NCBI GenBank assembly: GCA_024742875.1 | Contig: JANSXP010000006.1 | Coordinates: 124,001 to 188,000, forward strand | From: Planctomycetaceae bacterium | GTDB lineage: Bacteria > Planctomycetota > Planctomycetia > Planctomycetales > Planctomycetaceae | Length of the DNA: 64,000 bases | Reading direction: 5' to 3' | Shown: in pieces, positions 8,801 through 21,818 of the stretch | Position numbering within the stretch: the stretch's first letter is position 1 | How the letters are laid out: each line of letters opens with the position of its first letter | Program-made: the position numbers and the translations under genes | Notes under the pieces: model-generated | What the model was told of the DNA's origin: nothing | Database searches by the model: none | Seen by the model: only the letters and a program-made list of their open reading frames with translations

Positions 8801-9329
8801 CTCCGGCGGGGGCGACTTTGCTCAGCAGGGCAATGTCACCGTGTATCAGTCTCTCGGACGCCAGGCCACAGTGAATATTGTGTGGTGGAATCGCCCATTC
8901 CTGGTGGCCGTCATCTGTGGCGCTCTGGTGTTTGCCGGTTTCATTCTGCGACGCACCTCCTGGGAAAACCGTCTGACTCTCGTGATTCTGGGCACACTGG
9001 CGGTCGCCCTGTGGTCCATCAAAGACAGTTCCGAAACGCTGCAGTTTCTGTCAGCCGGCTCTCTGGGACTGATTGCTGTGGCTGGCATCTGGATTGTCGG
9101 ACTGCTGCTTGGCCCCGACCGAACCGCGGAGATTCCGTCGCCGCCACCGTCTGAACCGGGAGCCGAGGCGGGGCCACAAACACCTCCGGAACCAGCGCCC
9201 GTCGCTCCGTCCCCCATTCCCGATTCGAAACCGCAGAGCAACACTTCGGCGGACGAGTCAGACCGAACAGCCATCAGTCCGTCACCGGAAGTGAGCAAGT
9301 GGATGAACGATCTGATGGGAGGCAAATGA
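5850..9329 (+). CDS. Giant exported membrane-anchored protein, module A (1159 aa)
   Basis: This protein of unknown function begins with a signal peptide (MQKAALFLLFGFTVSLWPA, cleavage near CRAQ). ATG 5850 was preferred to the in-frame TTG at 5838. Residues about 45-80 hold an anchor motif, VVPYAEYMKLLDAY, that recurs in both halves of the next gene. A long mainly beta-strand ectodomain follows, with repeated phrases of the form 'YTQRPVAVSV' and 'YRIAVPEAIADEV'. Three hydrophobic helices lie near residues 1015-1089, then a Pro/Ser-rich tail of about 70 residues. The layout predicts a large extracytoplasmic domain held by C-terminal helices. The stop overlaps the next start (ATGA), so the two are translationally coupled. 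I recognise no catalytic motif. Confidence 0.9.
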   Translation: MQKAALFLLFGFTVSLWPAECRAQDEEAPATAEADSEEASIDQLERLIYIPFAQLRKVLDNQEASAVVPYAEYMKLLDAYMKNTGAADNSPDAVITESHYSGSVEDDVARIEAELQIEVLREDGWARLPLTFGQSAVGRLKTDRPDDTLLRGVSDGKYELLLKGKGQHTVTISLLAAIKTSPEHRSFRITCPAVGISDLTLTIPEADQAVRLFPLQVLQPVDDAADGTTKIKASLGSASYFEARWNPEAGSQPIMDLLTSVSNSTNVRIEQGLIQTTTQLNYEVLRGELTEVAVAVPADASIIDVVSTSGRIRTWSAEAVGTTHQLLKIELLTAVTESLGIEIQTERTPDGDTVQLIGKTEDGLLRGIHAEGVVRESGRLTLSTDSSLTTVVESQSGVKRIEAAISKGGNPAAQAWEFSGTTGALVVRVKPVEPRLLVAQSSRVIFGNDELKLTSRLIYTVERAGVFQLSLSYPETLTIDTVRADGMSEFNVDKNSGKLTLSLTQKRLGQIVVDVVARQPFDAAAEGLETVVPTITPEGVERESGTLDLYAPRFLDVTTLNDSVVNLFPNEEAGGAAVGSAVRVSSWKYTQRPVAVSVRTSPRPAQLAGSVGTTVEVEPDVAKVSSVATFTVQNAGIDTYRIAVPEAIADEVRFQSASSAHVIQQRDRGDAVDGWVTWTLVLQNEVTGTVAITADWEVPLDTAQSEQEGLELMLQPVQILSPYDDDAADKRRVTLSQTRGEIRLLRHESLSITSEGDGETLERVDVRELELLPQEGYVGYRYFSQPVTISIDVRRHEIHEVVATVVSRAAFEVVTDQQPLASYRCRLRVTTSERQRLLVYLPVGADLQTPLLNNRRTTFEAAEDAAEIAQWDAYYVNISREGTSDQEFLLAFQFRCPITAASEFPYEGQGSKQILRLPMIGDDSGATVVQEVRTAVWSPESISFVGEPRNWKLSGGLSWTPWNPMVSPVSVRAAAELNDWIGDSSGGGDFAQQGNVTVYQSLGRQATVNIVWWNRPFLVAVICGALVFAGFILRRTSWENRLTLVILGTLAVALWSIKDSSETLQFLSAGSLGLIAVAGIWIVGLLLGPDRTAEIPSPPPSEPGAEAGPQTPPEPAPVAPSPIPDSKPQSNTSADESDRTAISPSPEVSKWMNDLMGGK

Positions 9330-12300
9330 TGAATCATCACTCCCATCATCCCTCGCGGCGACGATCACAGACTGTGCTGCTGTGCAGTTTGCTGGTCAGC
9401 CTGATCGCGGTCTCTGCGGCCCGGTCAGATGAGCCGTCCGGTCGTGCGCGTTTCGTGCCGGCCGACCAGTTGGCGGACGTCTTTGACAAGACACCACAGG
9501 GCGTATTCCTGCCGCGGGAGGAATACCTCGCGCTTGTCAGCAAAGCGAGCGCCGCAAAGCGCGCGAGTGCAAACTCGCCGGAACCTGTCGTGATTGAGTC
9601 CGCCAGCTACAAGGTCAGCCAGAATGACAATCACGCGATCGTCGAGCTGACCATCAACGTCCGACAGTTTCTGGATGACTGGGCCATCGCCCGATTTCCC
9701 CTGGGCAACCTCAGTCTGGAATCAGCCACGATTGATAACAGGGCGGCGCATGTTGCCCGCGTGGATGGCACAGATCACATTGCCATCGCCCACAACGGGG
9801 CAGGCACGTTTGCCATCAAACTTGAACTGTCGACACCACTGGGCGTTGTGGGCAGCGATCGCGTGGCCGCTTTCCGTACCTCGGGGGACATCCCCACGAC
9901 ACTGAGCGTGAACTGCCCGGCTGGAAAGATTCTGAATTTCAACGATCTGAAGATTCGCCGGCCGGCCGACATCACTGAGCGGACCGACTACACCATCCCG
10001 GCGGGCAGCTTTGACCAGGTGCGGCTGAAATGGACAACCGAACGTCAGCAGTCTGACTCACAATCGCTGGTCTTCGCGAAAACAAACGCCCGTCTGAGCC
10101 TGTCTGCTGACAATCTCCGCTGGAATTCGGACAGCCGGCTTTCTGTCTTTGGCAGTGCCATTAACCAGATCATGGCCAGTGTTCCGGCGGAACTGGAAAT
10201 CACGGCCGTGGACTCAGCCGGCCTGGAATCCTGGAAGCTTGAAGACGACCCGGACTCCGCGGGAGACACGCGACTGGTGCTGAGTTACCGCCAGCCCTTC
10301 ACGCAGGATCGGATGCTCAAAATCTCAGCCGTTATGACGGCCGTCGGCTCGGAACAGTGGCAGGTACCCAACCTGCAGTTTCGCCAGCTGACATCACACA
10401 CCGGACGCCTGCTCGTGCAGCATCAGGACAATCTGCGTTTGCTGGCGGACGCACAGAACGGCATTCGTCAGGTCTCACTGGGACAGGCCCAGGGAGAGGC
10501 CTTTGACTTCTGGCTGCAGGACTTTGATCTGGGACTGACTGTTCGACCAAGGGACCGGGAACTGTTTGCGGAAGTCAACTCCTGGCTGCGGTTTGATGAT
10601 TCTCAGGTGACGCTGGAAGCACGCACCACCATCGAATCACTCAACGCACCACTGTTTGAGCTGCCCGTCACGGTCCCCTCAGGCTGGCAGGTCGCGGAGC
10701 TGACCGGCCTCAACAACCCCGCGCCGAGTTACCGCAAAACGTCAGACGAATCCGTGATTGTGCTGCAGCCGCAGACGCCCGTGGCGGCCGGTGGCCTGCT
10801 GGGTTTTCGCCTCGTGCTGACGCGGACCATCGACAGCCCCACGCAGGAACAGGTCATTGACATTCCCATTGTGTCCGCCAGCAACGCTCTGCTGGTGGGC
10901 GGCACCTACAGTATTGCGGGGGCAACAGACCTAACGGTCTCTCCGCTACAGATCAATGGTCTCGCGCCAATCGCGGATGAAAACGGACAGACTCTGTTTG
11001 AAACGCAGGGGACGTCTTATTCCGGTCGGGTGAGTGTCGTGCGCAAGCCGTCACGACTGGCCAGTCGCGCTGTGATTCGCACGTGGCTTGATGAACGTCA
11101 AAAATCGGTCGAGCTGCTGCTAACCGTGGATGTCCTGAACGGCACCACCCGCACACTGGATCTGGCGGTGCCCGAATCTCTGGGCAGTGACCTGCGTTTT
11201 TCTTTGCAGTCGATCACCCAGGTGCCCGGCCACTCCGACCAGATGATACCCGGAAGTCTGAAGCTCACGGAACAATCGGCCGACGAGCCAGTCGACGGAC
11301 AGCGAGTGTATCGGCTGACGTTTGATCGACGATTTGTTGGTGCCGTCACGCTGCGGACGTTCGTGCAGCAGGAACGAGAGGCCGACACCAAACTGGCGGC
11401 CCCGTTCATCAAAGTGGAAGGGGCCGTTCGTCAGCATGGACTCATCGCCTTTGAAGCTCAGTCCGATCAGCAGATCGACACACCGCAGGATCTGACGGGC
11501 AGCGGACTGTCTATCGCCGATGCGGGTCTGATTCCCGCACCGCCGGCCAGCACCGGGCGTCGTGTGGCGCTGGTGTACCGATTTATTCAGCCAGACTATC
11601 AGCTGGAACTGACAGAAACCACGTTCGCCACCAACGCGGTGCCGTCGGCCGTTGTTCCTCTGATTGAAAATACGAGCGTCGTCAGCGAAGGTGAGATGCA
11701 GCAGCGGCAAAGTCGCATTCACTTTCGCTGTTCGGGCGTGCAGACGATGCGATTTGTGCTGCCCCATGCCGAGCAGTCGTATCTGTGGTCCACAGTTCTG
11801 AACGGCGAGCCCATCGAAGTGCGCAAAGATGAGTCCGACTACCTGGTCGCCATTCCCCCCGGTTCTCCGGCGACAGACTACGTGCTGGAAGTTCTGTTCG
11901 AGTCTCCCAGCGTGTCGTCCTCTTTTCTGGGAGAATCCGCACAGGATTCTGTGCAGCTGAAAATTGACACCGAAGATGGACGCGTCACGCCGGTCGATGT
12001 GCTGCAGCAGCAGTGGGATGTGCGGTACCCGCCGTCGGCCATGCTGCTTAACCATGGGGCTGGATTCCGGCCCCTGCGCGCGGTGGACCAGGCCGGGTGG
12101 CTGCAGACACTGCCGGACCTGCTTAGCCTTCCCACCCGCAGTACCTTCCTTGAACGGGCGCGGCCCGCCGTTGTGCTGCTGGCCATTTTCTTTGTCGCCA
12201 CGGCACTGATTGTCAAACGCCGCTGGAAGACGCTGGCCGCTGTCGCCATTTTTGCATTCGTGCTCACGCTTCCACGCGTGTTCAACAGCCGTCAATACCA

Positions 12301-15300
12301 GGCAGAGAAGTCAATCGCTCCGGCGAGTCCGAGCGAGGAAACAGCAGAGTACGAGGAAGACTACGGCATGATGAGCGGTGGCAGGAACCTGCAAGAGCTG
12401 GCCCCCAGCGATACCGCAGGCGGCATGGCTGGGTTTGGCGGCATCGCTGGTGCAGAGATGGCCCCCATGGAGGGCATGGATGTGGACGGGGAAATGGATT
12501 TTGCGCGAAATGCCGCGGGTTTGGAACGATCCACGGCCACTCCACAGCGGGCCTCCGGAGGTGGGGACGCAGATGGTGGGGACGGTTTTGCCGGTGACAG
12601 CACGGCCAATGGATCTGGAGGATCGGCTTCGCAGATGAGTGCTCCACGGGATGATTTTTCGGGCCAGATGGCGGGCCTGCCAGCCCCCGATTTTCAGATG
12701 CGTAAAGGTGCCGCCAGGTTGTCGGTCAAAGCCAGCATCGCCGCCCCTGGCGATTTTCGATCGATGCAGTTTCGCAGCATCGGCGCCACGGCCGATGCTG
12801 GCCGTCTGCAGATTACCATCCAGCCGCGGGCGCGTGTGACGGCGCTGCGTATCATCGCCGCCGCATTCGTGGCGCTTGTCTGCCTGCTGATCAACCGCGC
12901 ACCGGCCGTCAGCAAGGTCGCATTTTTGGTGATCATTACCATCGCGGCGATCGCCGCTGTCCCCGTGGCTCCCAACGAATGGCAAAGTGCGGTGGACGGC
13001 GTTTTGATTGGCGCAGGCCTTGGCCTGGTCATCTGGCTGGCGTTCGCTGTGTGCGGCTGCCTGATGTCTTGTTGCAGGGGGCTGTTCCGCCCCAAAAATA
13101 TGACACTGGGAACAACGGCCAAACTCCTTTTGCTGGCCCTGTTGTGTGGTGGCTCCACCGTGGTCGCGCAGCCTCCGACCGAAACCGCCGCGTCGGAGGA
13201 CATCATTCTGCCCTATGACCCCGATCAACCGGAACTGCTGGCTGACAAGGTGTTTTTGCCGCAGTCACAGTTTCTCAAACTGTATCGGGCGGCTTACCCG
13301 GATCGACTCAAAACGGAAACGCTCCCGCTCCCCGGACAGGTGATCGCCGCCTATTACACGTCCACCGATCTGAATCAGGTGGCGGGCTCCACGTGGACAC
13401 AAACCATCAAAGCCCGATTCGTCATTCAAATCGCCAGTGAGGCTCAGCCCACTGTGGACATTCCTCTGGGGTCTGTCGCCATCAAGTCCGCGGTCATCGA
13501 CGGTCAGCCTGTCGCAATGACACCCCGAAAGGTGCCCGCCGCCGGACAGTCGGACGCCGGTCAGATGCCCCAGCAGACGCAGCAGCGACTGCAGACGCAG
13601 GCGAAAACACAGCAGGTGCAATCAGCAAAGATCGCCGCGCCCGGCCCGGCCGCATCAGCCTACCAGGTCAGCGTGACAACTCCGGGACTGCACCTATTGG
13701 ACGTGGAATTTGATGTGGCCGCTGATGTCGAGGGGGCCGTCGGTAAGCTCAGCCTGCCGCTGCGAAGCGCCGGCATGGGGACATTGACATTCACGCTGCC
13801 GGCGGATGATCTGGACGCCACCATCAACGGACGAACCAGCGCCTATCGTCGCGACGGCCGGACGCTCATCCTGCCTACAGGCCAGGCCAAAGACATCACC
13901 ATTGCGTGGCGGCCGGCCGAGAAGAAAAACGCGGCAGACACCACGTACCACAGCTACGTGAACTCCGCACTGAGCATCAGTGATCAGGGCCTGACTCTGG
14001 AATCCGCACTGCGCATCAGCTGCCGGCAGGGAGAGCTCTCCGAATTGGACATTGTCCTGCCGACCGACTACTCCGTCAGAAGTGTTGACGGTACGGAAAT
14101 CGCCGGTTGGGAAACACCGGCCGATTCTCCCGGCTCGCTGCGACTGCTGTTTAAACAGCCTGTCACCAAAGAAGCGATCATCCGCCTGACGCTGTTTCGG
14201 CGAGCCGTTTTTGGTCAGGATGAATCCCGCCTTAATGTGCCCGTGCCCGTCGTCCCTGGTTCAACGCGAGACGTGGGCATGATCTCGGTCTGTGCAGGCA
14301 GCGAGCTGGAGGTACGTGTTGATTCCCTGTCTGCCGTCAGTCAGATCAACGCGGCCGATGTTCCCGCACCGGACGGCACGCAGCAGAACCTGCCCAGAAT
14401 CCTCGCCTGGCGCTACACGCGCCACCCGGTGTCCATTGGCGTTCGCGTTTTTCGGGATGCTGACAGGCTGAACATCAACACGCTGTCCGGTGTGCAGCTG
14501 GAAGCCCAGCGTCAGCTGTGGACCACACTGGTCAGCGCCAATATCTCCGGCGCCCCGAGACGGCGGATTGAAGTGGAAGTGCCGGACGATTTTCTGGCAC
14601 TGGACGTGACGGCCAACGGGCTGGCGGACTGGTACTACACAGACGGCACAAAACCGGGCACCCGACTGCTGAACATTCAGCTGCAGCAGGCAAGATCCGG
14701 TGTGGTCAACGCCGTGATCCAGGGGCAGACGGGCCGCGCACAGAACGAACTGACGGCGCAATTGAAACCGCTGATCGTCCGCGGTGCCACCAGCGTCAAA
14801 GCCACGATCAGTGTCTGGCTGGATGCCGCCTCAGAAATTGCCTCAGTGAATTCCGGAGAGTGGAATCGTGTGGGCCGCGAGGTGAGCCTCGATCCACGCA
14901 TCCTCAAACTGCAGTCCGATTCTCCTGACATTTCGTTCCAGACAACAGCGGCCACCGAATCAGATATCGCCCTGGAACTGCGACAGGCCGAGTCATCACT
15001 GGCCGCAGAATCCGTGACGATTTCCACCGTCACGGACACTTCTGTCGAGCTGACGCTGGGGCTGAACTGGAAAATCTCCGGCGCAGCCACCCGCACGGTC
15101 GCCTTTCAGATTCCCGCAGCCCTGTCCGACGTTTACGACTTTCAGGTGCCCGGGCTGCGACGGTTGCAAAAATCCACCGAAGGCGACGTCACGACCGTCA
15201 CCGTCCATCTGCAGCAGCCGGCAGGTGAAAGCCTGTTTGTGCTGGGAATCGGCACACTGCCGCTGCCGGACTCCCGGGAAATTTCTCCGGAGCAGCCGGA

Positions 15301-17326
15301 ATTCGTGGTTCCCGAGACAACATCCGATCGCGTGTCGACGCAGTCGCATTTCTGGGTGATTGTCAATCAGTCTCCCGGGCTGCTGCAGCCGGTTGACGCC
15401 GGTCAGGATGGCGACCAGGTGAAGCCGGATGAAATTCGCACGAATATGCCACCCGAACTGCTGGAACAGGCGGTCGCCATCAGGCGGCTCAAGTCGAATC
15501 AGCCACAGACGCCATGGCTGCTGTCGTTCCCCGAACGTCAGCAGGTGGCGCCTGCCATTGTGGCTTTGGCGGCCCACACCACGGTTATTGCCGAAGACGG
15601 CACGTGGCGTTCGCGACATCGCCTGCAGGTTCGCAATGAGTCACGACAGTTTCTCACCGTGCAGATGCCGGACGACAGTCGTCTTTTGTATTCCCGCGTT
15701 GAGGGTCGCCCTGTGCGCATGGTGTCGCGAACCCTCGGCGAGCAGGAGCTGTTTCTGATTCCGATCCCGCAATCGGGTGAAGTGTCTCGCCCCATTAATG
15801 TGGAATTTGCGATTGCCGGCACCACGGCGCTTCGCAATCTGCGTGCCGCAGGTTCGGACTTGAGCATTCCCTGCCCGCACATTCCCACATTCCGTGAGTT
15901 TCCGGAGTTCGGTGTGACCATTTCCAGAAACACGTGGCAGGTCTATGTGCCACAATCCTGGCACACGAGCGTGCTGGACAATCCCCGCCAGACCAACATG
16001 GCACGGGCCAACCAGGAAGTGCTGGAGGACACCATCATGCTCTCGGGCATGGAGAATCTGAAGTCCATTCTCAACGCAGCCAGTTCTCAGGGACAGGTCG
16101 ACAACATCAATCTGGTTCAGGAAATCGAACGACAAAGTCTGCTGCTCGAATCACTGCGGTGTAACGACATTTCTGTTGCCCAGCAGCGAACGGAAATCCT
16201 CAATGAAGCGGAGGTCCTGTTTGAGCAGCTGAACCGAGACAACAAAGATCAGATCGACGCCATTCAGCAGTGGCAAAGTGAGGGCGCGGGGGTCAACAGT
16301 TTCCTGGACCAGCAGGCCCTGCAGCAAAACGGATACAACCAGAGAAACTCTTTGAATCTGCTGTTTGGTAATTCGGCGCAGGGCGTTCAGGTGGACATCG
16401 AAGAACCGGCGCTGTTCAACTTTGTACTGCCCACAGAACCACAGTCGGAATCCCGTTCCGGACGGGAATTTGGTGGCAAACGGGAGAATGGCAAAGCCGC
16501 TCCGAAAGTCATGGCGCCCGTCGACAACAACGCGTCGCAACTGCTGAACCGACGCGACTCCAATCGAAAATCCCAGTCCGAACAGCTCAAACTGCAAAAT
16601 ATGCCTCGCAAAGCGGGGCAGCTGCAGGCGCCGCAATCCAACAGCGTTCCGGCCTTTGGCAGTCGACAGCTCATGTTTCCCGGACAGCCACTGGCTGATG
16701 AGGACGCCACACTGATCATTGGCGGAAATGCGACCGGAGGCGTCGGTCAAAATGGAATCACAATCCTGTCTGATGGCGGCGTTGTGAGCCCCCTCGTCCA
16801 GCCGGAATATGCGGCACCGGCGAATCAGAGCGCTGCCCCCGCCGACGACCCGTTCAGCACACTGCAGGCGGGTGAAGTGGCCGTGGGACAGGTGCCGCAG
16901 TCGGGCCGGATCGCTGGGAATGCGGACGGGTGGTGGACTGGCGTGGCGGGCACAGGCCTGCTGTCGCTGGAATTCGACATTCCGGAAGACGGACTGCGAT
17001 ATGATTTTGTGCGTTCCGGTGGCAATGCCAGCCTGGCGCTGCGGGTACAGCCGCAGGATAGCGTCAACCGCCTGCAGGGCCTGATCTGGATCGTGGTCTG
17101 CCTGATTCTGCTGATCATCATCCTGCAGGGAGCCAGCCACGGCATGGCCTCACTGGCCCGCCGCGTGTGCCTGATTCTGAGCGTTGCCAGCCTTGCCGGC
17201 TGGATGTGCACGCAGAATCCGGTGCGTGATCTGGCGATCGGCGTCTTTGTGGTCGCGGCTCTGCTGACCTGTATTCTGTATATCGTGCAGTCACGAGCGC
17301 AAAGTCGGCCACCCGTCGAAGCGTGA
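9326..17326 (+). CDS. Giant two-module membrane protein (2666 aa)
   Basis: Starts at ATG 9326 in the ATGA overlap, 3 bases after GGAGG, rather than at the upstream in-frame ATG 9299. It has a signal peptide at residues 10-35. Module B1 (residues 1-1258) opens with FLPREEYLALVSK, continues as a beta-rich ectodomain, and ends in two TM hairpins (about 946-988 and 1173-1250) split by a Gly/Met/Asp-rich linker (about 1014-1121). Module B2 begins at an internal Met (1259) with a second signal-like segment (TAKLLLLALLCGG), then FLPQSQFLKLYRA. It is also beta-rich, has a helical Gln/Glu-rich stretch near 2238-2322, and ends in about three TM segments (2586-2658). The organisation suggests a head-to-tail fusion of two paralogues of the upstream gene. 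Function is unknown; a cell-envelope role is inferred only from topology. Confidence 0.9.
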   Translation: MMNHHSHHPSRRRSQTVLLCSLLVSLIAVSAARSDEPSGRARFVPADQLADVFDKTPQGVFLPREEYLALVSKASAAKRASANSPEPVVIESASYKVSQNDNHAIVELTINVRQFLDDWAIARFPLGNLSLESATIDNRAAHVARVDGTDHIAIAHNGAGTFAIKLELSTPLGVVGSDRVAAFRTSGDIPTTLSVNCPAGKILNFNDLKIRRPADITERTDYTIPAGSFDQVRLKWTTERQQSDSQSLVFAKTNARLSLSADNLRWNSDSRLSVFGSAINQIMASVPAELEITAVDSAGLESWKLEDDPDSAGDTRLVLSYRQPFTQDRMLKISAVMTAVGSEQWQVPNLQFRQLTSHTGRLLVQHQDNLRLLADAQNGIRQVSLGQAQGEAFDFWLQDFDLGLTVRPRDRELFAEVNSWLRFDDSQVTLEARTTIESLNAPLFELPVTVPSGWQVAELTGLNNPAPSYRKTSDESVIVLQPQTPVAAGGLLGFRLVLTRTIDSPTQEQVIDIPIVSASNALLVGGTYSIAGATDLTVSPLQINGLAPIADENGQTLFETQGTSYSGRVSVVRKPSRLASRAVIRTWLDERQKSVELLLTVDVLNGTTRTLDLAVPESLGSDLRFSLQSITQVPGHSDQMIPGSLKLTEQSADEPVDGQRVYRLTFDRRFVGAVTLRTFVQQEREADTKLAAPFIKVEGAVRQHGLIAFEAQSDQQIDTPQDLTGSGLSIADAGLIPAPPASTGRRVALVYRFIQPDYQLELTETTFATNAVPSAVVPLIENTSVVSEGEMQQRQSRIHFRCSGVQTMRFVLPHAEQSYLWSTVLNGEPIEVRKDESDYLVAIPPGSPATDYVLEVLFESPSVSSSFLGESAQDSVQLKIDTEDGRVTPVDVLQQQWDVRYPPSAMLLNHGAGFRPLRAVDQAGWLQTLPDLLSLPTRSTFLERARPAVVLLAIFFVATALIVKRRWKTLAAVAIFAFVLTLPRVFNSRQYQAEKSIAPASPSEETAEYEEDYGMMSGGRNLQELAPSDTAGGMAGFGGIAGAEMAPMEGMDVDGEMDFARNAAGLERSTATPQRASGGGDADGGDGFAGDSTANGSGGSASQMSAPRDDFSGQMAGLPAPDFQMRKGAARLSVKASIAAPGDFRSMQFRSIGATADAGRLQITIQPRARVTALRIIAAAFVALVCLLINRAPAVSKVAFLVIITIAAIAAVPVAPNEWQSAVDGVLIGAGLGLVIWLAFAVCGCLMSCCRGLFRPKNMTLGTTAKLLLLALLCGGSTVVAQPPTETAASEDIILPYDPDQPELLADKVFLPQSQFLKLYRAAYPDRLKTETLPLPGQVIAAYYTSTDLNQVAGSTWTQTIKARFVIQIASEAQPTVDIPLGSVAIKSAVIDGQPVAMTPRKVPAAGQSDAGQMPQQTQQRLQTQAKTQQVQSAKIAAPGPAASAYQVSVTTPGLHLLDVEFDVAADVEGAVGKLSLPLRSAGMGTLTFTLPADDLDATINGRTSAYRRDGRTLILPTGQAKDITIAWRPAEKKNAADTTYHSYVNSALSISDQGLTLESALRISCRQGELSELDIVLPTDYSVRSVDGTEIAGWETPADSPGSLRLLFKQPVTKEAIIRLTLFRRAVFGQDESRLNVPVPVVPGSTRDVGMISVCAGSELEVRVDSLSAVSQINAADVPAPDGTQQNLPRILAWRYTRHPVSIGVRVFRDADRLNINTLSGVQLEAQRQLWTTLVSANISGAPRRRIEVEVPDDFLALDVTANGLADWYYTDGTKPGTRLLNIQLQQARSGVVNAVIQGQTGRAQNELTAQLKPLIVRGATSVKATISVWLDAASEIASVNSGEWNRVGREVSLDPRILKLQSDSPDISFQTTAATESDIALELRQAESSLAAESVTISTVTDTSVELTLGLNWKISGAATRTVAFQIPAALSDVYDFQVPGLRRLQKSTEGDVTTVTVHLQQPAGESLFVLGIGTLPLPDSREISPEQPEFVVPETTSDRVSTQSHFWVIVNQSPGLLQPVDAGQDGDQVKPDEIRTNMPPELLEQAVAIRRLKSNQPQTPWLLSFPERQQVAPAIVALAAHTTVIAEDGTWRSRHRLQVRNESRQFLTVQMPDDSRLLYSRVEGRPVRMVSRTLGEQELFLIPIPQSGEVSRPINVEFAIAGTTALRNLRAAGSDLSIPCPHIPTFREFPEFGVTISRNTWQVYVPQSWHTSVLDNPRQTNMARANQEVLEDTIMLSGMENLKSILNAASSQGQVDNINLVQEIERQSLLLESLRCNDISVAQQRTEILNEAEVLFEQLNRDNKDQIDAIQQWQSEGAGVNSFLDQQALQQNGYNQRNSLNLLFGNSAQGVQVDIEEPALFNFVLPTEPQSESRSGREFGGKRENGKAAPKVMAPVDNNASQLLNRRDSNRKSQSEQLKLQNMPRKAGQLQAPQSNSVPAFGSRQLMFPGQPLADEDATLIIGGNATGGVGQNGITILSDGGVVSPLVQPEYAAPANQSAAPADDPFSTLQAGEVAVGQVPQSGRIAGNADGWWTGVAGTGLLSLEFDIPEDGLRYDFVRSGGNASLALRVQPQDSVNRLQGLIWIVVCLILLIIILQGASHGMASLARRVCLILSVASLAGWMCTQNPVRDLAIGVFVVAALLTCILYIVQSRAQSRPPVEA

Positions 17327-17513: not shown

Positions 17514-18203
17514 ATGGCGACCTCACTTCACCAGCAGCTGAAACTTCATTATGTCGCCGACGAGTCACAGCACGAGATTGATCTGGACGGCTATCGCATT
17601 GATGCCATCGACGAACAGGATCGGCTGATTGAAGTGCAGTGTGCTTCGCTTTTGGCCATCCGGGACAAAATCCGCAAGCTGACCAAAAAGCACAAAGTGG
17701 TGGTCGTCAAACCACTGGCGGCAAGGAAGAAGCTGCTGAAAAAAGAACGCCGCAACGGCAAGGTGGTCAGCAGTCGCTACAGCCCGGCGCGACAGTCACT
17801 GCCGTGGATCTTTCAGGAGTTGGTTCATTTCACCAAGGCGTTTCCTCATCCGAATCTGCAGCTCGACATTCTGCTGACCGAGCAGGAGGAAGTACGGGTG
17901 CCCGCCAAACGCAAAACATGGCGACGCAGGCATTCGGTGCAGGACCGTCGACTGGTGGAAGTGCAGCAGACCGTCTCACTGTCGACCGTCAAGGATCTTT
18001 GGAACAGCCTCGAAGCCGACGTGCCTAAAGTGTTTACGACGGCGGATTTGGCGCGGGAAGGAGCGATGCCCCGCTGGCTGGCACAGAAGGCGGCGTACTG
18101 TTTTCGTGAAATGGGGCACATTGAGATGTGCGGCAAGCAGGGAAACGCGATCGAATATCAACTGAAAAAGAGAAGGAATAGACGTAAGAAGTCGGCCGCG
18201 TAA
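17514..18203 (+). CDS. Predicted nuclease-like domain + winged-helix protein
   Basis: A 229-residue cytoplasmic protein. Residues about 15-70 have the pattern of a PD-(D/E)XK core: a glutamate and aspartates in HEIDLDGYRIDAID, then IEVQ, where Q replaces the usual lysine, followed by a helix (SLLAIRDKIRKL) and a strand (KVVVVKPL). The middle is strongly basic (KKLLKKERRNGK, KRKTWRRRHS). Residues about 155-220 look like a winged helix (FTTADLAREGAMPRWLAQKA, then EMGHIEMCGKQGN). Together these predict a DNA-binding protein with possible nuclease activity, but this is inference from motif shape; the active-site assignment is unproven. It has a basic C-terminal tail. Neighbours are an envelope gene and a redox gene, not a restriction or repair cluster. 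Confidence 0.75.
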   Translation: MATSLHQQLKLHYVADESQHEIDLDGYRIDAIDEQDRLIEVQCASLLAIRDKIRKLTKKHKVVVVKPLAARKKLLKKERRNGKVVSSRYSPARQSLPWIFQELVHFTKAFPHPNLQLDILLTEQEEVRVPAKRKTWRRRHSVQDRRLVEVQQTVSLSTVKDLWNSLEADVPKVFTTADLAREGAMPRWLAQKAAYCFREMGHIEMCGKQGNAIEYQLKKRRNRRKKSAA

Positions 18204-18245
18204 TACTCGCAGAAACGTCCATACCCTTTTTACGGAACTTCTCTC

Positions 18246-18779
18246 ATGACAAAACGCATCGCACTGGGACTGTGCCTGCTGGTCTGTTCGGCGGTCTGTG
18301 CCGACGAGGCCAAAACCGCCAAAGCGGAAATCGGCAAGCCGGCTCCCAACTTCACCGCGACCGGAATCGACGGTGAAACATTCACACTGAAAGACAAACT
18401 CAAGTCCGGCAAAAAGAATGTTGTCCTAATCTTCAGCCGCGCCAGCTGGTGACCATTCTGCATGAGGCAACTGGGTCAGTTGCAACAGCAGGCGGACGAA
18501 TTCAAGGCATTGAACACAGAGCTGATCTTTGTTTTCCGTGAAGAACAACAGGGCGTGGACGGCCTGAAAAAGATCAAAAGCAAAACGAAGACCACATTTA
18601 CACTCGCAGTCGATTTCGACAAGAAATCGAGCAATGCCTACAGCTCCAAACGCATGACGTTCGACAATTATGTCGTCAGCAAAGACGGCACGATTAAAGC
18701 GGTTGTGGACGGTTCCCTGCGAACGCGTGCTACGGCCGAGCAACTGATGAAGACGCTGAAAGAAATTGAAGGCAAATAG
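18246..18779 (+). CDS. Candidate selenoprotein: exported thioredoxin-fold peroxiredoxin-like (UPFC)
   Basis: Read as one 177-residue frame with TGA at 18450-18452 decoded as selenocysteine (Sec69). Residues 1-25 form a signal peptide (MTKRIALGLCLLVCSAVCA). IGKPAPNFTATGIDGETF is the usual AhpC/TSA N-terminus. The redox site reads FSRASW-U-PFC, where relatives have a cysteine in WCPFC; Cys72 is the partner. Downstream the fold continues without damage: ELIFVFREEQ, and FDNYVVSKDGTI of the thioredoxin cis-Pro region. A standard gene caller splits it into 68 and 105 codons in the same frame. A SECIS-like hairpin follows the TGA. The role would be thiol/peroxide redox chemistry outside the cytoplasm. 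The alternative is a nonsense mutation of a Cys codon (one base). No sel genes are in the window. Confidence 0.75.
18458..18491 (+). promoter_or_regulatory. Candidate bacterial SECIS element
   Basis: A hairpin inside the coding region directly after the in-frame TGA. The outer stem CTGC/GCAG (18458-18461, 18488-18491) is followed by a bulged A and a TG/CA pair, then a 2x2 internal loop. The inner stem is a perfect 6-bp GCAACT/AGTTGC (18467-18472, 18478-18483), and the apical loop is GGGTC (18473-18477). The loop starts 20 bases after the TGA and contains GGU, matching the known bacterial pattern (loop about 16-37 bases from UGA, G in the first two loop positions). It would bind SelB. Confidence 0.7.
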
Positions 18780-18877
18780 GGCACTCGGCCTGGCAAAAGA
18801 GCGACGAACGTCGTCAATACGCGAGGTGTGATACAACGGGTCACCACGCGCTGCAGAACGGCCGGCAGACATCTGAC

Positions 18878-18917
18878 GGGGCGGAACACGGGTTTTCCTG
18901 TGTTCCGCCCTGTTTTT
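18878..18917 (+). terminator. Rho-independent terminator after the redox gene
   Basis: An 11-12 bp GC-rich stem (arms 18878-18889 and 18900-18911, the outermost pair G-T) with a 10-base loop is followed by a T-run ending at 18917. It separates the redox gene from polA. Confidence 0.85.
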
Positions 18918-19007
18918 GCGCAGTGGCCGTTGCCCGCACGCGTGCGACACACAGCAGGCTCGCTATGATCGGCCCGACTTTGTTCGCAATCTCTGACGGC
19001 TGCACCG

Positions 19008-21818
19008 ATGGCAAAACAAGAACTGTTCCCTGACGACAAAAAACTGGTCCTGCTGGATGGAATGGCGCTCGTCTACCGCGCGCACTTTGCCCTAATACGC
19101 AGTCCGCGTTATACGTCCGGTGGACTGTGCACATCCGGAGTGTTTGGCTTCGCGAATACCCTGCTGGACATCCTCAAAAAGGAAAATCCTACACATATTG
19201 CGGCCGCGTTCGACACGTCAGATCCCACCGAACGACACGAGATCTTTCCCGAATACAAGGCGCAACGCGATGCGCTGCCTGAAGACATCGGCGCGGCACT
19301 GCCTTACATCGATAAACTTCTGGCCGCGTTCAACATCACGGTCATCCGCCGCCCCGGTTACGAAGCGGATGACATCATCGGCACCATGGCTCACGAAGCA
19401 GCCGCCCAGGGCTACCAGACGCTGATGGTGACACCCGATAAGGACTACCATCAACTCGTGACCGAAGACGTGGTCATCTTTCGCCCCGGCCGCAAGGGGG
19501 CGGCTTACGAAACTCTGGGCATTCCGGAAGTGCTGGAACAGTGGCAGATCGAGCGTGTGGATCAGGTCATCGACATCCTGGGCTTGATGGGCGATTCCAG
19601 CGATAACATCCCCGGCGTGCCAGGAGTCGGTCCCAAGACGGCGCAGAAACTAATTGCCAAATACGGCAGCATCGAAAACCTGCTGAACCACACAGACGAA
19701 CTGAAAGGCAAACAGAAAGAACGCGTTGAGGAAAACGCCGAGATGGCCCTGCTGTCCAAAAAGCTGGTCACCATTCAGCTGGATGTACCGCATGGGGTCA
19801 ATCTTGATTCGCTGGCGGTCGTGGATCGCAACGACGATGACCTGAAGGCGCTGTTCGAGGAACTCGAGTTTGATGCCATTGGCCGCAAGATGTTTGGGAA
19901 GGATTTTTCATCCTCAGCCAGCCGCGCGGCCCGCATTCGGGAAAAGCGGGAAGCACAAATTCAGGCCACGCTGTTTGACGATGCCGATGAGGTATCGGTG
20001 AAGTCCATTCAGGATGTCAGGCACACCTATCACACCATTCGCACAGCAGCTGAACGCAAAAAGCTGATCACAGAACTGAAGAAACAGAAGGCCGTCTGTT
20101 TCGATACGGAAACCACCGGGCTGGATCCGCGCAGCGCTTTGCCACTGGGAGTCGCCTTCAGCTATCAGCCGCATGAAGCGTGGTATGTACTGTGTGAAAA
20201 CGCAGAAGGCGCCGCCACACCACTGGACGTACTGGAAGAATTGCGGCCCGTTTTTGAGGATGAATCCATTCGCAAAGTGGGACACAACCTGAAGTACGAC
20301 GTGACACTGCTGAAGTGGCACGGTATCGAGACCCGCGGCGAATTGTTTGACACCATGCTGGCTCATTCCATGAAAGAGCCGGAAATGAAGCACGGCCTGG
20401 ATTATCTGTCGGAGCTCTATCTGGCTTACAAGCCCATTCCGACAAGTGCTCTGATAGGCGAGCGGGGCGACGAGCAGAAGAACATGAGTGAAGTTCCCAT
20501 CGAGCAGGTTGCCGAATATGCGGCCGAAGATGCGGACATCACGCTGCAGGTCGCCACCGTCATTGAGCCCGACATCGAAAAGCAGGGCGTCAGTTCGGTG
20601 TGCTACGAGGTGGAGTGTCCGCTGATTCCCGTTCTGGTGGATATGGAGTTTGAGGGCATCCGCCTGGACACCGCCGCATTGGAGAAAATCTCAGGACAGC
20701 TGGAAGCCGACATCAATGCGCTGGAGGAACAGATCTACACGGCCGCCGGCCACACGTTCAACATTGATTCTCCCAAGCAACTGGGCGTGGTGCTGTATGA
20801 AGAACTGAAGCTGGTGGAAAAGCCCAAGAAGACGGCCACCGGACAGTGGTCCACGCGGGAAACCGAACTGCAGCGACTGGCCGGCAAACATCAGATTGTG
20901 GCCGACGTGCTGGATTATCGTAACGCCGTCAAACTGAAGTCTGTCTATGTGGATCAGCTGCCGTCCTACGTGAATGAACAGACGGGCCGCCTGCATACTC
21001 ATTACAGTCAGACATGGACGGCGACCGGCCGCATGCAGAGCAACAATCCGAACCTGCAGACCATCCCCGTGCGAAAAGAACGAGGCCGTGAAATCCGCGC
21101 GGCGTTTGTTCCGCGAGATGAAGACCACCTGCTGCTGGCGGCCGACTACTCCCAGATTGAACTGCGCATCATGGCCGAACTCAGCGGCGACGAGGCCATG
21201 AAGCAGGCATTTATTGAAGGCACAGACATTCACTCCGTCACGGCATCAAAGGTGTACGGAGTCGACTTTAGTGAGGTGACCCGCGAGATGCGGGACAAAG
21301 CCAAGATGGTCAACTTCGGTATCATTTATGGTATCTCCGCCTTTGGTCTGCAGCAGCGTCTGAATATCCCTCGTGCCGAAGCCAACGAGCTGATTGACGG
21401 CTACTTTGACAAGTACCCGGGAGTGCAGAAGTGGATTGACGCCACGATCGAGCAGGCCAAAACCGACGGATACGTGCAGACGCAAACAGGACGTCGACGC
21501 TATTTGCGAGACATCAATTCCCGCAGTGCGTCACTGGCAAATGCCGCCAAACGGCTGGCGCAGAATACGCCCGTGCAGGGGACAGCAGCCGACATGCTGA
21601 AGCTGGCCATGATCAAAGTGCACGCGGCGCTCACCGCGGGCGGATTCCAAACGAAAATGCTGCTGACGGTCCACGATGAAATCGTATTTGACATGCTCAA
21701 GTCCGAAGAGGATCGCGTGAAGCCCGTCATCGAACAGGCCATGAAAGAAGCGCTGCCCATGAGCGTGCCGGTCGTGGTGGAACTGGGCACGGGAGAAAAC
21801 TGGCTGCAAGCGCATTAG
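19008..21818 (+). CDS. polA: DNA polymerase I
   Basis: A 936-residue enzyme of standard length for repair synthesis and Okazaki fragment processing. The 5'-3' nuclease domain is N-terminal (LLDGMALVYRAHFALI onward, with the helix-hairpin-helix GVPGVGPKTAQKL). The 3'-5' proofreading domain is intact: FDTETTGLDP carries the two acidic residues, and YAAEDADITLQ is the third motif. The polymerase domain shows motif A (ADYSQIELRIMAEL), motif B (KMVNFGIIYGIS) and motif C (TVHDEIVF). The start is ATG 19008, since LLDGMALVYR and the preceding residues follow it directly. It appears to be transcribed alone, flanked by terminators. Confidence 0.98.
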   Translation: MAKQELFPDDKKLVLLDGMALVYRAHFALIRSPRYTSGGLCTSGVFGFANTLLDILKKENPTHIAAAFDTSDPTERHEIFPEYKAQRDALPEDIGAALPYIDKLLAAFNITVIRRPGYEADDIIGTMAHEAAAQGYQTLMVTPDKDYHQLVTEDVVIFRPGRKGAAYETLGIPEVLEQWQIERVDQVIDILGLMGDSSDNIPGVPGVGPKTAQKLIAKYGSIENLLNHTDELKGKQKERVEENAEMALLSKKLVTIQLDVPHGVNLDSLAVVDRNDDDLKALFEELEFDAIGRKMFGKDFSSSASRAARIREKREAQIQATLFDDADEVSVKSIQDVRHTYHTIRTAAERKKLITELKKQKAVCFDTETTGLDPRSALPLGVAFSYQPHEAWYVLCENAEGAATPLDVLEELRPVFEDESIRKVGHNLKYDVTLLKWHGIETRGELFDTMLAHSMKEPEMKHGLDYLSELYLAYKPIPTSALIGERGDEQKNMSEVPIEQVAEYAAEDADITLQVATVIEPDIEKQGVSSVCYEVECPLIPVLVDMEFEGIRLDTAALEKISGQLEADINALEEQIYTAAGHTFNIDSPKQLGVVLYEELKLVEKPKKTATGQWSTRETELQRLAGKHQIVADVLDYRNAVKLKSVYVDQLPSYVNEQTGRLHTHYSQTWTATGRMQSNNPNLQTIPVRKERGREIRAAFVPRDEDHLLLAADYSQIELRIMAELSGDEAMKQAFIEGTDIHSVTASKVYGVDFSEVTREMRDKAKMVNFGIIYGISAFGLQQRLNIPRAEANELIDGYFDKYPGVQKWIDATIEQAKTDGYVQTQTGRRRYLRDINSRSASLANAAKRLAQNTPVQGTAADMLKLAMIKVHAALTAGGFQTKMLLTVHDEIVFDMLKSEEDRVKPVIEQAMKEALPMSVPVVVELGTGENWLQAH

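Follow-up and report, generated by a model that had tools for sequence, protein, structure and literature searches.

A predicted selenocysteine codon in the redox motif of a putatively exported AhpC/TSA-fold oxidoreductase of a planctomycete

The window analysed here, a stretch of 64,000 nucleotides (contig C22:124001-188000), contains two open reading frames (ORFs) that lie in the same frame and are separated by a single TGA codon. The question raised by the locus is whether this TGA terminates a short protein or is read as selenocysteine (Sec) within a longer one. The genome of 8.18 Mb in 168 contigs is 98.1% complete with 2.05% contamination. The best explanation, to which we assign a probability of about 0.93 on the basis of sequence comparison, is that the in-frame TGA is the Sec codon of an exported UxxC thiol:disulfide oxidoreductase with an AhpC/TSA fold. 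The original prediction had proposed Sec decoding, and the proposal is supported by the Sec machinery of the genome, the column of the TGA among the homologues, the comparison of hairpins, and the association of the TGA with selA. The features of the locus are listed in Table 1.

Table 1. Features of the predicted selenoprotein gene and of the region downstream, in positions of the window.
Feature	Position	Strand	Basis or remark
Predicted selenoprotein coding sequence, 177 residues, stop TAG included	18246..18779	+	open but for one TGA
N-terminus resembling a signal peptide, MTKRIALGLCLLVCSAVCA, with probable cleavage before DE	18246..18302	+	judged by eye
TGA codon predicted to be read as Sec, residue 69	18450..18452	+	among 16 aligned homologues, eight have TGA and eight have Cys here
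Cys72, second redox residue of UxxC	18459..18461	+	nearly invariant in the 15-row alignment; Phe in L035
SECIS-like hairpin of bacterial type with a 7-bp stem; its GGU loop (18474-18476) lies 21 nt after the TGA	18467..18483	+	folding and comparison
Very strong terminator-like hairpin with a 17-bp stem and a loop of 4, followed by four T	18876..18917	+	-33.6 kcal/mol, z -8.63; between the gene and polA

Reading frame and predicted protein

The frame of 177 codons extends from the ATG at 18246 to the TAG at 18777-18779, and the TGA at 18450-18452 is its sole interruption. Bacterial translation rules split the frame into ORFs of 68 residues (18246-18452) and 105 residues (18462-18779), in agreement with the original prediction, which had described the two ORFs and expected a gene caller to break the gene in two. 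The protein obtained by reading through the TGA forms a single AhpC/TSA domain (PF00578, E 1.2e-20, 74.1 bits against a cut-off of 26), and also matches Redoxin (PF08534, E 1.8e-11). When scored separately, the two halves match consecutive stretches of the PF00578 profile with 22 and 27.8 bits.

The ratios dN/dS (Nei-Gojobori) of the window gene to the genus members for which they are computable are about 0.12-0.16 before the TGA and 0.10-0.13 after it, and the pair of relatives L026 and L028 has a value of 0.09 after the TGA; all values before the TGA are within 0.09-0.16. These values are rough, because synonymous sites are near saturation and several pairs are without a value. Even as rough estimates, they show that the protein is under ordinary constraint before as well as after the TGA. 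The claim that the fold continues undamaged beyond the TGA is borne out by the absence of a further stop, the score of the whole PF00578 domain, and the dN/dS of about 0.09-0.13 in this part of the gene.

The hydrophobic start of the protein and its A-DE junction are similar in several homologues, and the predicted structure has low pLDDT across approximately the first 20 residues. The window protein is probably exported.

Homologues and position of the TGA in the redox motif

Homologues with E<=1e-15 are present in 15 of the 170 genomes of the order, including the genome of the window. A scan of the collection added a copy from a Rubripirellula MAG, resulting in 16 copies, of which eight have TGA and eight Cys in one column; two weak matches of the same scan (L021 and L022) are outside the counts. 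The correspondence of the TGA to a Cys of the homologues, anticipated in the original prediction, is thus found in half of the copies, and seven other genomes share the TGA in this redox column. G019, one of the seven other members of the genus, has selA and contains no match to the gene at E<=1e-15. The search of the phylum yielded 48 matches, distributed over 47 of the 392 genomes. One TGA is present in 27 of the 48 matches, and in 26 of these 27 it belongs to a UxxC motif. The 48 matches include five duplicates of the first set (L038, L039, L044, L040, and L041). The matches L056, L061, L067, L080, L082, and L085 have neither U nor WC[P/A]xC and do not enter the hairpin counts or the selA count for Cys copies.

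The TGA is the first position of the redox motif W-U/C-P-F-C, which reads W-U-P-F-C in the window protein. The motif has the form W-[U/C]-P-[F/H/Y]-C in 14 of the 16 copies, W-U-Y-F-C in L037, and W-C-P-F-F in L035. In phmmer alignments, Sec69 is positioned opposite the first Cys of the WCxxC motif of ResA. In the alignment to the peroxiredoxin Bcp, Sec69 is opposite the Thr of the active-site loop, and Cys72 is opposite the catalytic column. The active-site motif of peroxiredoxins is TxxC. Sec forms of peroxiredoxin are described as carrying TXXU (PMC1088965). The original prediction had placed the TGA at a peroxidatic or redox Cys. The term redox is correct, as the TGA matches the first Cys of the ResA motif, whereas the label peroxidatic is unsupported, because Sec69 occupies the Thr column of peroxiredoxins.

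The AlphaFold model of the window protein, calculated from the 15-row alignment, has a pLDDT of 87.9 and a pTM of 0.80. Among the top 1000 PDB chains identified by Foldseek, the model is nearest to peroxiredoxins (3drn, Z 22.1, rmsd 1.5 over 145 residues, 27% identity). A peroxiredoxin-like fold in a predicted model is by itself no proof of activity.

Selenocysteine machinery in the genome and across the phylum

The original prediction had named the absence of selA, selB, or selC as a refutation of Sec decoding. The genes for tRNA-Sec, selA, selB, and selD are all present in the genome. The tRNA-Sec (77.8 bits against a cut-off of 47, anticodon TCA) and selB (334.8 bits) are located on contigs other than that of the gene. 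In line with this, ARAGORN identifies no tRNA in the window. The genes selA (485.5 bits, C22:21803-23143) and selD (256.3 bits, C22:19695-20597) share the contig of the gene, and mis-binning is therefore no explanation for these two.

The presence of selA follows the redox codon. A score over the cut-off is found in 29 of the 30 genomes with a UxxC copy versus nine of the 20 with a Cys copy (Fisher p 4e-5, order and phylum pooled), a p-value that is optimistic because the related rows are not independent. The TGA genome without a selA match (G326) is an assembly that is 84% complete and consists of 990 contigs. This count is exclusive of six genomes whose copies have neither motif, four of which have selA, and of the genome with the TxxU copy L075. 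If the six are taken as genomes without TGA and that of L075 as a TGA genome, selA is present in 30 of 31 versus 13 of 26. The genome of L020, a Sec copy from outside the genus, contains selB over the cut-off.

SECIS-like hairpin downstream of the TGA

The hairpin GCAACUG-GGU-CAGUUGC follows the TGA at the distance suitable for a SECIS element, as had been proposed, and its strength lies in comparison. The hairpin of the window alone is modestly unusual, with shuffle z of -0.10 to -2.45 over four folded stretches. The peptide Q-L-x-Q-L written in common codons is nearly self-complementary at the RNA level. This peptide favours pairing by itself, and hairpins of single sequences therefore prove little. 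Under a null model in which the peptide is fixed and synonymous codons are drawn anew, the window sequence forms on average 5.6 of the seven pairs, and the probability of forming all seven is approximately 0.13; none of the eight TGA copies has a probability below 0.12. Because of the weak result of the window hairpin under this model, the case rests on comparative evidence.

All eight TGA copies of the first set have a stem of 6-7 bp, an apical loop that begins 20-21 nt past the TGA, and a G among the first two bases of the loop. In the alignment of these copies, the 7-pair stem is 96.4% paired, which is reached by 8 of 500 shuffles. Three pairs of the stem are doubly changed, each in one sequence (reached by 6 of 500 shuffles), and further pair types are not beyond the shuffles (93 of 500). 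The same columns in the eight Cys copies are 55.4% paired, which is indistinguishable from shuffles.

The comparison was extended to 53 copies in which the redox position can be recognised (33 TGA and 20 Cys), comprising the first 16 copies and 37 of the 48 phylum matches. The loop had to be located 16-37 nt downstream of the TGA or Cys codon, within the limits of distance for a SECIS hairpin after UGA, and the stem had to contain at least 6 bp. The criterion for the loop is the G in the small apical loop of bacterial SECIS elements described in PMC1088965. Hairpins of this description occur in 31 of the 33 TGA copies versus four of the 20 Cys copies (p 4e-8, which is optimistic since the rows are related and not independent). 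The 33 TGA copies include L075, a TxxU peroxiredoxin with its TGA in another column.

The peptide Q-L-x-[Q/E]-L is positioned immediately after the active site in 19 of the 33 TGA copies versus two of the 20 Cys copies. Some of the stems are formed over different peptides, such as L-L-Q-V-L-Q in L052. The Cys copies L027, L043, L045, and L047 retain a 7-bp stem with a GUU or GUC loop at the place of the SECIS, and in the genomes of the last three (G476, G365, and G525) selA is without a score over the cut-off. These stems may be relics of a SECIS or effects of the peptide. Rfam models gave no match in the window at their gathering thresholds.

Alternative readings of the TGA and proposed mechanism

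The UGA could be read through as another amino acid, such as a near-cognate Trp or Cys, in a manner independent of SelB. Leaky readthrough is a known general phenomenon. However, the genome contains the complete Sec machinery, the hairpin after the UGA covaries, the TGA is positioned at the redox column, and selA goes with the TGA. Readthrough of this kind is thus very unlikely.

Alternatively, the locus could be a Cys gene of the ordinary kind that was turned into a pseudogene by a nonsense mutation or was misread in sequencing. TGA is one base away from TGC and TGT, and Cys is present in half of the 16 close homologues. The copy L027, which has a TAG elsewhere in the frame, indicates that damaged or misread copies exist in the group. 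However, the TGA is in the same column in eight genomes, and distant relatives also have TGA in UxxC. The frame is without another stop, dN/dS after the TGA is low, and the hairpin goes with the TGA. Chance or decay into a pseudogene was rejected on account of the shared TGA column, dN/dS, and the association of the hairpin with the TGA, and such a mutation or error is extremely improbable. Termination at the TGA after an exported peptide of 68 residues, with re-initiation of a separate protein of 105 residues at the ATG at 18462, is barely credible despite the position of this ATG 9 nt past the TGA, because neither half by itself makes up the complete fold, the second half would be without a signal peptide and the redox pair, and the same Met is present in single-frame Cys homologues (e.g. 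L024 and L032-L034), so that it belongs to the protein.

Under the preferred reading as a Sec codon, SelA and SelD would produce Sec-tRNA(Sec), and SelB, bound to the hairpin 21 nt after the UGA, would deliver this tRNA to the ribosome, so that the UGA at codon 69 would be read as Sec. The finished protein would be secreted across the inner membrane, and the pair Sec69-Cys72 would alternate between the selenol and thiol forms and a selenenylsulfide, reducing periplasmic disulfides or peroxides. The frame, the column, the machinery, and the hairpin with its covariation are read directly from the sequences; from them we infer the decoding itself, the export, and the catalysed reaction.

Standard annotation would cut this well-supported selenoprotein in two. 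The 26 of 48 AhpC/TSA-type matches in the 392 genomes of the phylum that, by search and motif, have TGA in UxxC indicate that selenium-dependent redox proteins are probably under-counted in this phylum. The general picture of selenoproteins is left unchanged.

Relation to known families

The window protein fits a published predicted family of selenoproteins as a further member. A Prx-like family in which UXXC replaces TXXU is described in PMC1088965, Table 2 of PMC2398784 lists "Prx-like 1, pfam00578, UxxC" with 225 sequences, and Table 1 of PMC13188914 lists "Prx-like thiol:disulfide oxidoreductase, PF00578, UxxC, UxxU". As far as the domain and motif descriptions in PMC13188914 and PMC2398784 allow the comparison, the AhpC/TSA domain, UxxC in place of TxxU, and a SECIS-like hairpin are common to the window protein and this family, of which WP_010940744.1 is the published representative. 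Six putative antioxidant selenoproteins are reported from one planctomycete genome in PMC4807772, and relatives of the window protein may well be among those in table S9 of that paper. Among the papers listed in the literature searches, none dealt with this particular protein.

The nearest solved fold among the top 1000 PDB chains from Foldseek is that of peroxiredoxin Q/BCP (3drn). Unlike peroxiredoxins and the selenoprotein PrxU, which have TxxC or TxxU, the window protein has UxxC at this place, and its score with the PrxU model is 20.4 of 270 bits. ResA is an exported protein. The WCxxC column of ResA/TlpA-type oxidoreductases (PDB 4nmu) matches the W-U-P-F-C of the window protein, but ResA has Cys in the position of Sec, the NCBIfam ResA model NF002854 reaches 55.8 of 170 bits, and the predicted fold is nearer to peroxiredoxins among the rows compared. 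The other redoxin-type models are weak matches: the SelL-related NF040769 (40.3 of 120 bits), the deiodinase-related model (23.4 of 250 bits), WAxxUGC (19.6 of 300 bits), and TUGYCR (12.4 of 100 bits). The window protein is under the cut-off of every one of the 20 NCBIfam models matched at E<=1, and the named models of NCBI would therefore not catch it.

Putative changes from selenocysteine to cysteine in the genus

Two members of the genus have Cys in the redox column, and their genomes both contain selA. In the tree of 24 rows, the Cys copy L027 is nested among Sec copies with support of 100/99 and 94/87, and its hairpin is intact. The Cys copy L024 diverges first among the genus members, and the Sec copy L020 is placed outside the genus. 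The hairpin of L024 is decayed, with six of the seven pairs and no stable fold. The simplest reading of this arrangement of sequences is a change from Sec to Cys in genomes that still hold selA. Events of this type in selenoprotein-containing organisms are described in PMC1794560.

The copy L027 (G016:C42) contains an in-frame TAG at a codon other than that of the redox column, and may therefore be damaged or misread. The use of UAG as a Sec codon in G016 was considered and dropped, as the TAG is at a different codon and this copy has Cys in the redox column.

A broader account of the genus, which we regard as evenly balanced between right and wrong, is that Sec was replaced by Cys on at least one occasion, and probably on two, while selA was kept, that the hairpin of L027 is a relic, and that the hairpin imprinted Q-L-x-[Q/E]-L on the protein. 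If it were true, this small family would be a natural record of a recoding signal that constrained a protein and was then lost. A genus with Sec and Cys versions in genomes containing selA is a good place to measure the benefit of selenium.

Other in-frame TGA genes and genomic neighbourhood

The same genome contains a second gene with an in-frame TGA (L068, G000:C57:63212-63694, minus strand). It encodes HEAT repeats and, after them, an AhpC/TSA domain that carries the motif D-T-U-P-V-C, and has its own SECIS-like hairpin. The identical motif D-T-U-P-V-C is present in L065 of another genome. The search of the genome with the model of formate dehydrogenase alpha gave no match over the cut-off, and led to a third in-frame-TGA gene (L089:474-1643, minus strand, G000:C125). 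This gene, cut by the end of the contig, encodes formylmethanofuran dehydrogenase subunit B (FwdB, 448.7 bits against a cut-off of 327.8) with the motif U-H-G-P. FwdB with UHxP is a selenoprotein family listed in Table 1 of PMC13188914, and an FmdB selenoprotein is reported in a planctomycete in PMC4807772. The two additional genes count in favour of Sec decoding in the window gene.

The gene context gives no functional partner. The scan of 18150-19020 for promoter patterns identified no promoter, and also did not list the terminator-like hairpin at 18876-18917. In the loci of the relatives, the flanks are at most 1.5-3 kb long, and shorter at contig ends; polA is not found in these short flanks. 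The ORF of 229 residues upstream of the gene (17514-18203) is without a Pfam match at E<=0.001 or an NCBIfam match at E<=0.01, and is found near the gene at E<=1e-4 in four of 13 loci (L025-L028). Further upstream is an ORF of 2675 residues (9299-17326), the start of which resembles a signal peptide when judged by eye.
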